A stretch of DNA of 44,847 bases from Candidatus Liptonbacteria bacterium. GTDB taxonomy: Bacteria > Patescibacteriota > Minisyncoccia > UBA6257 > 2-01-FULL-56-20. The position numbers were made by a program, and so were the translations under genes. Below are positions 11,825 to 12,927 of this stretch, piece by piece; the stretch's first letter is position 1; every line of letters starts with the position of its first letter. Location of the stretch: contig JACQBP010000045.1 in NCBI GenBank assembly GCA_016194445.1, positions 1 through 44,847 on the forward strand, in the 5' to 3' direction. The notes beneath the pieces were generated by a model, which did not search any database, was not told where the DNA came from, and worked only from the letters and a program-made list of their open reading frames with translations.

Positions 11825-11927
11825 AACTAAACTATCTAACGATCGTAAGATAGTTGAGTTTGAAAAAACATCCCCACCATCCCTCTCTTACCCACTATAG
11901 TATCTAACGATCGCCGGATACTATAGT
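11825..11927. repeat. Two hairpins with different stems and the same loop
   Basis: Hairpin one has arms 11825-11837 and 11848-11860 (12 of 13 paired). Hairpin two has arms 11894-11904 and 11917-11927 (11 of 11). The stems are unrelated, but both pass into the loop through TATCTAACGATCG, which includes the palindrome CGATCG. Confidence 0.75.
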
Positions 11928-11956
11928 AAAAACAAAACACCCCGCCGAAGCGGGGC
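11926..11956 (-). terminator. Terminator of the RNase P RNA gene
   Basis: On the minus strand CCCCGC, TTCG, GCGGGG is followed by TGTTTTGTTTTT. It lies just past the 3' strand of helix P1. Confidence 0.88.
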
Positions 11957-12301
11957 ATTTTATGGCAATTCATAAGCGGGATTCTGTCTCGCCCGTCATA
12001 GCTTTCGCGACGGCGGGATTAACGATCATTTATCTGGGCCTTTGATTACTCGCAGGCTCAAGCGGCACTTCCGAAAACAGCTTGCGCTGTTCGGACACGA
12101 CCTTGCACTCGATAAGGATTTAGCCGTTTCACCTCTGTCTTTTTATCCCTATAACAGAGTTAGACCAAACTAGCTTGGGATTGGATCTCCCTCGTCCTTT
12201 CGAACGAGAGCGTCACTGCTCGCACCTCTACGCTTACGCGCGACGGCTGTTAGCCGCTACCTTTTTATCCTGTTTACACAGGAGAGTGTCCCGACTTTCC
12301 T

Positions 12302-12592
12302 CCCCCCACCACTTTTCATGCCGACTCGAGACTACCTTTTATTCGCTTTACTAATTCTTTATAAGAATTTTTAAACTGCTTCAGCTTTCTTTCTCGAGTC
12401 AGGGCATCTAACTTAGATCGGTAGATTTCACAGTAGACAAGAACGAAAGGACCTCTGTGTTTCGTTGATTTAGTATCACCCGCATTATGCTCAGATAGCC
12501 GACGCTTCAAATCATTAGTGACACCAATATACAACCTACCGTCCTTTGTACTTTTCAAGACATAAACGCAATACATGAAAAGTGGTGGGGGG
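12302..12592 (-). mobile_element. Putative GIY-YIG element bounded by a 19-bp perfect inverted repeat
   Basis: The arms CCCCCCACCACTTTTCATG (12302-12320) and its exact complement (12574-12592) flank one ORF and nothing else. The ATG comes from one arm and the TGA from the other (CATGA). The arms also serve as the P3 helix of RNase P RNA. A 291-bp unit of nuclease gene plus terminal inverted repeats is what a minimal homing-type element would look like. Mobility itself is inferred. Confidence 0.7.
12316..12576 (-). CDS. GIY-YIG endonuclease nested in the RNase P RNA P3 loop
   Basis: 86 residues, a single GIY-YIG nuclease domain of the short UPF0213 type. Motifs: VYVLKS and LYIG (the two Tyr), then NDLKRRLSEHNAG (catalytic Arg and His) and TRERKLKQ (the metal-binding Glu). 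All catalytic residues are present, so the enzyme should be able to cut one DNA strand. The gene is embedded in the P3 helix. Its ATG and TGA lie in the two arms of the perfect inverted repeat, there is no Shine-Dalgarno sequence, and the start would be occluded in the folded RNA. It has no promoter of its own and must use that of rnpB. Confidence 0.9.
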   Translation of the reverse strand: MYCVYVLKSTKDGRLYIGVTNDLKRRLSEHNAGDTKSTKHRGPFVLVYCEIYRSKLDALTRERKLKQFKNSYKELVKRIKGSLESA

Positions 12593-12616
12593 CGATCGTC
12601 TGAATTACCAACCCCA

Positions 12617-12645
12617 ACTATACCCTATACCAACCAAAATAGCAA
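12617..12645 (-). promoter_or_regulatory. Promoter of the RNase P RNA gene
   Basis: TTGCTA (12640-12645) and TATAGT (12617-12622) on the minus strand, 17 nt apart. Seven nucleotides past the -10 comes position 12610, the first base of helix P1, an independent sign that the RNA begins upstream of the GIY-YIG gene. Confidence 0.8.
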
Positions 12646-12663
12646 TATGTGGTAATAACGTCT

Positions 12664-12927
12664 AAGAAAAAATTTATTTCCGAAACCATAAGCGAGAGGC
12701 GAGGTAGAAATCAGTTAGCGAGTAATTTTAATGACTCTTATGTAAAAGCAAACAAGATATTCCTTTGGCGCGGCTCGGAGGCCGAGCGGGCAGGGTGTCC
12801 CGCCTTGGCGGGACGAGCGAGGCCGGAGTGCCAGCGAAAGTTCTCGCTGGGAACTTGAGTGGTAGTCAAAGGAATATCTTGTTTGCACCCTTAAGCTGAA
12901 GCGGGTTGAAGAAATAAACTTTTTCTT
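12664..12927. repeat. Structured repeat element copy E0, interrupted by E1
   Basis: A 17-nt closing stem joins 12664-12680 to 12911-12927 with one wobble. The right arm ends 14 nt from the glutaredoxin stop. Removing copy E1 leaves about 125 nt, the same size as the other copies. Its ends carry the words CCGAAACC and AAGCGGGTTGAA, also found at the ends of E3/E4 and E6. Confidence 0.6.
12748..12886. repeat. Structured repeat element copy E1 (inserted in E0)
   Basis: The closing stem of 20 perfect pairs is GCAAACAAGATATTCCTTTG (12748-12767) with 12867-12886. Inside are GCTCGG/CCGAGC, GTCCCGCC/GGCGGGAC and an AGTTC/GAACT hairpin whose loop is TCGCTGG. It is nearly identical to E2 except for the middle hairpin and a compensated pair in the closing stem. 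Confidence 0.85.

Follow-up and report, generated by a model that had tools for sequence, protein, structure and literature searches.

A GIY-YIG nuclease gene between palindromic arms in the P3 helix of a patescibacterial RNase P RNA gene: a probable transposable element maintained as a hairpin

The only rnpB gene, encoding RNase P RNA, detected in an 894 kb genome (G000; 48 contigs, 99% complete) whose relatives are Patescibacteria is interrupted in its P3 helix by a 289 nt insert, comprised of an 86-codon open reading frame (ORF) for a GIY-YIG nuclease delimited by a perfect 19 bp inverted repeat. This insert is probably a palindromic transposable element that encodes a nuclease resembling UPF0213 and Slx1 as its sole protein and persists in RNA genes in the form of a hairpin, a reading drawn from sequence comparison. 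The window referred to throughout is the whole stretch of DNA analysed, the 44,847 nt contig C5 of this genome.

The interrupted gene lies on the minus strand (12610-11963), as do all of the features described here, and is flanked by genes for glutaredoxin and 3-methyladenine DNA glycosylase. As a first-pass annotation of the same DNA had proposed, helices P1, P2 and P4 can be paired and the 5' strands of P1 and P2 are upstream of the ORF: P1 (TGGTAATTCA, 12601-12610) pairs over 10 bp with TGAATTGCCA at 11963-11972, and P2 (GACGATC, 12594-12600) over 7 bp with GATCGTT at 12021-12027. The 5' arm of the element (CCCCCCACCACTTTTCATG, 12574-12592), which contains the ATG, forms the 5' strand of P3, the ORF (12316-12576) fills its loop, and the 3' arm (CATGAAAAGTGGTGGGGGG, 12302-12320), recognised through the perfect inverted repeat and the comparison of arms, overlaps the TGA and forms the 3' strand. 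The annotation had described these arms, with the start and stop codons inside them, correctly; the unit it gave as 291 nt is indeed present, but measures 289 nt, the outermost of the 19 pairs being a C-G that joins the final base of GATCGC to the initial G of GAGGAAAG. The remainder of the RNase P RNA (11963-12302), delimited by the Rfam model RF00010 and by identity to a sister gene, extends from GAGGAAAGTC at J3/4-P4 through the catalytic core to the 3' strand of P1, and includes the P4 3' strand region (ACAGAATCCCGCTTA, 11973-11987), located from the RF00010 scan and by reading the sequence. A 14-pair hairpin resembling an intrinsic terminator is found at the transcript end (11932-11963). 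The insert folds better than 200 of 200 shuffled sequences (z = -5.1).

A promoter had also been proposed for this transcript. The site in question, TTGCTA-17-TATAGT, does exist upstream of P1 (12617-12645), with 9/12 matches and a placement analogous to that in the sister genome, but 1.1 such sites are expected by chance. Two further palindromic regions neighbour the gene: an ORF-less palindrome of around 125 nt (GCAAACAAGATATTCCTTTG ... CAAAGGAATATCTTGTTTGC, 12769-12893) just upstream of the promoter region, and, downstream of rnpB (11840-11925), short palindromes with a common GATCGTTAGATA, namely ACTATAGTATC..GATACTATAGT and a neighbour.

Comparison with a sister of the same genus (G002), a check advised by the annotation, reveals an empty site: an identical 18 nt P1-P2 segment is followed by a P3 interval of 20 nt, rather than the 289 nt found in the window. 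The rest of rnpB has 267 identities over 341 nt between the two genomes, which also have in common the end of a glutaredoxin-like upstream gene, as read by eye. Reading of the sequence further indicates that P4 pairing has been kept through a compensated change, AGTCGGG / CCCGCTTA replacing AGTCCGG / CCGGCTTA. Ordinary, short P3 helices are likewise seen in members of the family; the median interval, readable in about two-thirds of the genes, is 22 nt.

On the minus strand of the window, RF00010 matches at 67.8 bits (E = 6e-21, model positions 1-367), under a gathering cut-off of 100 bits that 57 of 151 relatives exceed and that the uninterrupted sister gene, at 88.3 bits, likewise fails to reach. 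An Rfam scan of the window at the gathering threshold consequently returns no match, as the insert lowers the rnpB score, and the gene is detected in evalue mode. In that fit cmscan sets the first ~50 model positions, corresponding to P1/P2, on the tail of the ORF, the very placement the first-pass annotation had named as contradicting its own; it contains many non-pairs and is overridden by the sister sequence, and we regard it as artefactual, the model being unable to absorb an insert of 289 nt. No intron family was matched around the ORF, either in an evalue-mode scan of 11900-12700 or in the whole window. A weak match to rnpA was found in the genome (E = 8e-5, under the cut-off).

That the locus represents a misassembly, or an inactivated copy of rnpB, is scarcely credible, even though the sequence derives from an assembled metagenome and the score falls under the RF00010 cut-off, given that the same P3 architecture recurs in five independent assemblies and that the catalytic core and the P1, P2 and P4 pairing are retained. 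The annotation had noted that a second intact rnpB would mark this copy as dead; RF00010 found just one in the 99% complete genome, which argues for the function of the interrupted gene. Taken with the conserved pairing, these data argue for a nuclease ORF residing, as had been proposed, in P3 of a single-copy rnpB that is plausibly functional.

The ORF matches the GIY-YIG family PF01541 at 8e-19, the only other model to match being the related T5orf172. An AlphaFold model of the 86 aa protein has a pLDDT of 93.6, and the closest solved structures are the UPF0213 protein 1zg2 (8.5e-10 by sequence; 1.5e-4 by Foldseek) and Slx1, a cutter of branched DNA. Residues Y5, Y16, R26 and E62 are invariant in 29 relatives, and H30 is likewise invariant family-wide. 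The window ORF differs from its counterpart at locus L137 at 22, 12 and 47 first, second and third codon positions, respectively, a pattern indicative of purifying selection; it is expressed as counts, not a dN/dS ratio, because pairwise dS is saturated. Such selection, and a predicted fold close to UPF0213 and Slx1, would also suit an old, vertically inherited resident of rnpB, since lost from most lineages, with a host function in repair as a structure-specific nuclease transcribed together with RNase P RNA. This history is very improbable in view of the empty site in the sister, the ordinarily short P3 of the family, and the occurrence of same-arm relatives in Omnitrophota and at unrelated loci. 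Two more GIY-YIG ORFs are present in the window's genome, on contigs C7 (L090) and C10 (L092), both with CCCAGTACTACAA repeats; that on C7 directly precedes a pilin-like reading frame.

Related ORFs occupy P3 in four other rnpB genes (L137, L141, L144 and L148) and P12 in a fifth (L140). The two best protein matches among relatives both lie in rnpB P3, one in the same family (L137 in G015, 78% identity) and one in another (L141 in G051, 66%), and the remaining three carriers came from a scan of genome contigs; the rnpB genes at L144 and L140 score above the RF00010 cut-off. In the P3 carriers the insert is enclosed by paired P1 and P2 helices, whose sequences differ from carrier to carrier, with a single A-C mismatch in P2 of L137. 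Separately, on a Saganbacteria contig (L179; 2482-2848 and 2923-3171), a GIY-YIG ORF begins ~75 nt beyond an intact rnpB (237 bits), on its 3' side.

The distribution of these carriers could be accounted for by an rnpB-specific homing unit or intervening sequence, which would have entered P3 once and then spread from allele to allele through nuclease-stimulated recombination between P2 and J3/4, with no transposon involved. Exact P3 junctions with the window's arm are scattered, being found in 3/244 genomes of the order, and a clear gap in score separates the proteins of P3 carriers from the next proteins. Monophyly of the P3 carriers is not rejected (p-AU 0.36), and the window protein has that of L137 as its sister (99/95), on a protein tree whose few columns and rough bootstrap mean that single forks are not to be pressed. 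Furthermore, rnpB lacks a target duplication, the direct repeat flanking the window's copy being 3 nt only; its allele may therefore have been acquired through recombination between rnpB genes, and homing-type spread is a possible route for its arrival. As an explanation for the insert itself, this alternative is unlikely, since the arms and junction of L148 differ from those of the other carriers, and since the same arms and protein clade, as well as ORF-less copies, are found in the other settings described below.

The arms are the element's own ends. The same CCCCCACCACTT arms flank close relatives of the window ORF at unrelated loci: an outer arm CCCCC-ACCACTT is common to the P3 copies, the P12 copy and intergenic copies at L138, L139, L145, L150 and L151, and a variant of it occurs at L142, in a T-box-like leader. 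The annotation had recommended searching for the arm and GIY-YIG unit elsewhere, and these P12, leader and intergenic copies are the outcome; its picture of a lone homing gene exploiting the host's P3 accordingly does not fully hold. The idea that the arms are merely host P3 sequence was rejected, given their recurrence at unrelated loci and the different P3 sequences of other members of the family. Between 15 and 27 pairs are retained by the arms of 12 elements, with both-sided changes (C-G/A-T; C-G/G-C/T-A/A-T) such that position 6 appears as C-G, G-C, T-A and A-T, pointing to selection on the stem. Together with L143, the same-arm copies form one group of 13 on the protein tree (86/91), and the four arm types distributed over 33 proteins require 3 changes on that tree, the minimum possible, against a mean of 16.2 and a minimum of 13 over 300 shuffles.

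Same-arm copies were not found elsewhere in G000, where matches with 2-3 mismatches lie in apparent coding sequence (one) or near ribosomal genes, and a search for carriage of the element by viruses gave one weak match only. At L142 (3000-3340), the element is situated between the halves of an apparent T-box leader, with a AGGGTGGCACCGCG motif, ahead of a tRNA-synthetase-like gene.

Copies of the palindrome with no ORF are also found. In the rnpB of L144, P12 is a perfect palindrome, AACCCCCCACCACTTTTTTTAAAAAGTGGTGGGGGG, containing the window's arm core, beside the ORF copy in P3; at L148, rnpB contains two C-rich palindromes in addition to the ORF copy. In one genome (G136), the arm CCCCTCACTTGAAA is found 33 times at ≤1 mismatch, the reversed control being found 0 times; most of these matches belong to ORF-less palindromes of 68-145 nt, in about 15 copies, two of them inside rnpB, in P3 and P12. 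A truncated contig end in the same genome bears an ORF that has this arm too. Direct repeats of 4-7 nt (TTGAC, GGTTGAC, TAAA and GTCAA) adjoin the G136 palindromes in 4 of 10 cases. Exact-arm ORF-less palindromes were present in only 1 of 380 genomes of the phylum, and the trailing T runs there resemble terminators. The rnpB of G136 (L065) has three ORF-less hairpin inserts in all, forming P3, P12 and a third with other arms (GTCCCGCACCTTTTCTAAC). The annotation's view of P3 as a tolerant harbour is thus partly borne out: copies with or without the ORF also occupy P12 and another variable region of the gene. At L217 and L218 in G479, palindromes with the window's arm core are followed by T runs and positioned like intrinsic terminators.

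Signs of transposition extend to the wider family of ORFs, the fractions for which describe the neighbourhood of the query and not all GIY-YIG genes, because loci were chosen by similarity to it. Perfect inverted repeats ≥12 nt long surround 38 of 79 family ORFs, in comparison with 1-2 in a mispaired control, 0 in a shuffled one and 3 of 339 other ORFs at the same loci; over half of the family ORFs have no long repeat. Direct repeats of 5-11 nt adjoin the arms of 15 of 42 armed ORFs (mispaired-flank control: mean 1.0, maximum 4 in 200 runs), examples being TTCAC, TTTAC, GGATAAC and the tRNA 5' ends GGGCCGTTAGC and GGGCCAGTAG. Structured RNA genes recur as neighbours or hosts: 18 of 80 family ORFs end at the 5' end of a tRNA, against 2 of 756 control ORFs, and copies lie inside rRNA genes according to Rfam (16S, L184 and L185; 23S, L158), with a third 16S case (L206) read by eye. 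Many of the tRNA-side copies have another architecture, in which a 5' tRNA fragment is repeated. At L081, L101, L106 and L080, for instance, the 5' part of the following tRNA gene is duplicated ahead of GIY-YIG ORFs of another sub-type, and the ORFs at L089, L093 and L103 end within a tRNA gene whose sequence supplies the stop codon.

If the insert is a transposable element, its C-rich inverted repeats could extrude as a hairpin or cruciform, and its nuclease would recognise its own arm type and cut there or at a hairpin-forming target, action on arm cruciforms being suggested by the predicted Slx1-like fold. Repair after the cut would leave a copy with a short direct repeat. On transcription of an RNA gene, the element would fold into a hairpin, which in rnpB would serve as P3 or P12, so that the ribozyme core would stay intact. 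Because the start codon is within the 19 bp stem, it is doubtful that the intact RNA could be translated; RNase III could cleave the stem, as it does in rRNA intervening sequences (IVS), freeing the start codon and producing a two-piece RNase P RNA held together by P1, P2 and P3. The stem is of sufficient length for RNase III, two genes for which are present in the window's genome.

A more far-reaching proposition, held tentatively and judged somewhat short of probable, is that these elements constitute a separate class of prokaryotic DNA transposon, with an Slx1-like GIY-YIG protein for a transposase that would act on cruciforms of its own arms, target hairpin-forming DNA and hence structured RNA genes, generate short target duplications and drive ORF-less palindromes in trans, the window's copy being the P3 resident of an essential ribozyme. 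Were the transposable element interpretation true, a selfish nuclease gene would have an essential, single-copy ribozyme gene as its home and probably as its promoter. The structured RNAs of CPR bacteria have long been known to contain insertions, and these would gain a concrete agent that brings its own helix. A new nuclease fold would be added to those moving bacterial DNA elements, the variable P3 and P12 of rnpB in these lineages would be accounted for, and a directly testable model would be available for how RNA genes tolerate and gain new helices.

Among known systems, REP palindromes and their RAYT proteins, the latter Y1 HUH enzymes, comprise single-ORF units between palindromes, with many ORF-less palindromic copies per genome and specificity between arm and protein. 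The window's family is similar in having an ORF between palindromes, many ORF-less copies in one genome (G136) and arm-protein specificity, but its nuclease is of the GIY-YIG type, the window ORF having no match to the Y1 HUH transposase, and direct repeats flank some of its copies. I-TevI is a GIY-YIG homing endonuclease, and proteins of this type share with the window's the catalytic fold and residues, and the location of the ORF within a structured RNA gene. By contrast, the insert has no intron, no separate DNA-binding domain in its 86 aa, inverted-repeat ends and non-homologous insertion sites, with the same clade and arms at unrelated loci where homing endonucleases would occupy homologous sites only. 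Terminal inverted repeats, and non-autonomous copies with the same ends (P12 of L144, and the genome and rnpB of G136), are instead the characteristics of transposable elements. To our knowledge, UPF0213 and Slx1 are host proteins encoded outside RNA genes, and, unlike the present nuclease, are not linked with arms; we know of no role for the GIY-YIG fold in moving bacterial DNA elements.

In agreement with the first-pass annotation, which knew of no named system of this kind, searches of an open-access library covering GIY-YIG nucleases in connection with RNase P RNA and its gene rnpB, palindromes, Patescibacteria and target duplications returned no description of such an element. The nearest parallel is the set of rRNA insertions in CPR bacteria that have GIY-YIG ORFs, match no group I/II intron and lie mostly at the tops or bases of stem-loops (PMC11270868); the main text of that study presents no RNase P RNA case and uses neither 'inverted repeat' nor 'tRNA'. 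Like the copies found here in 16S and 23S genes, these GIY-YIG ORFs occupy structured RNA genes in the same bacteria; the present analysis adds RNase P RNA as a host gene, the arms, the target repeats and the ORF-less copies. An rRNA IVS, as cited in the same study, is excised by RNase III to leave a fragmented RNA (PMC11270868). With such IVS, including those associated with 23S_rRNA_IVP, the insert shares a non-intron position at the helix tip of an essential RNA, a long perfect stem and, in some cases, an ORF, but differs in protein and host RNA, and processing of the window's insert is a proposal. Jumping DNA that survives through hairpins in structured RNAs is thus apparently undescribed, and we rate the architecture as being of the IS/MITE or IVS type, although the nuclease is unexpected and the host RNA appears previously unreported.
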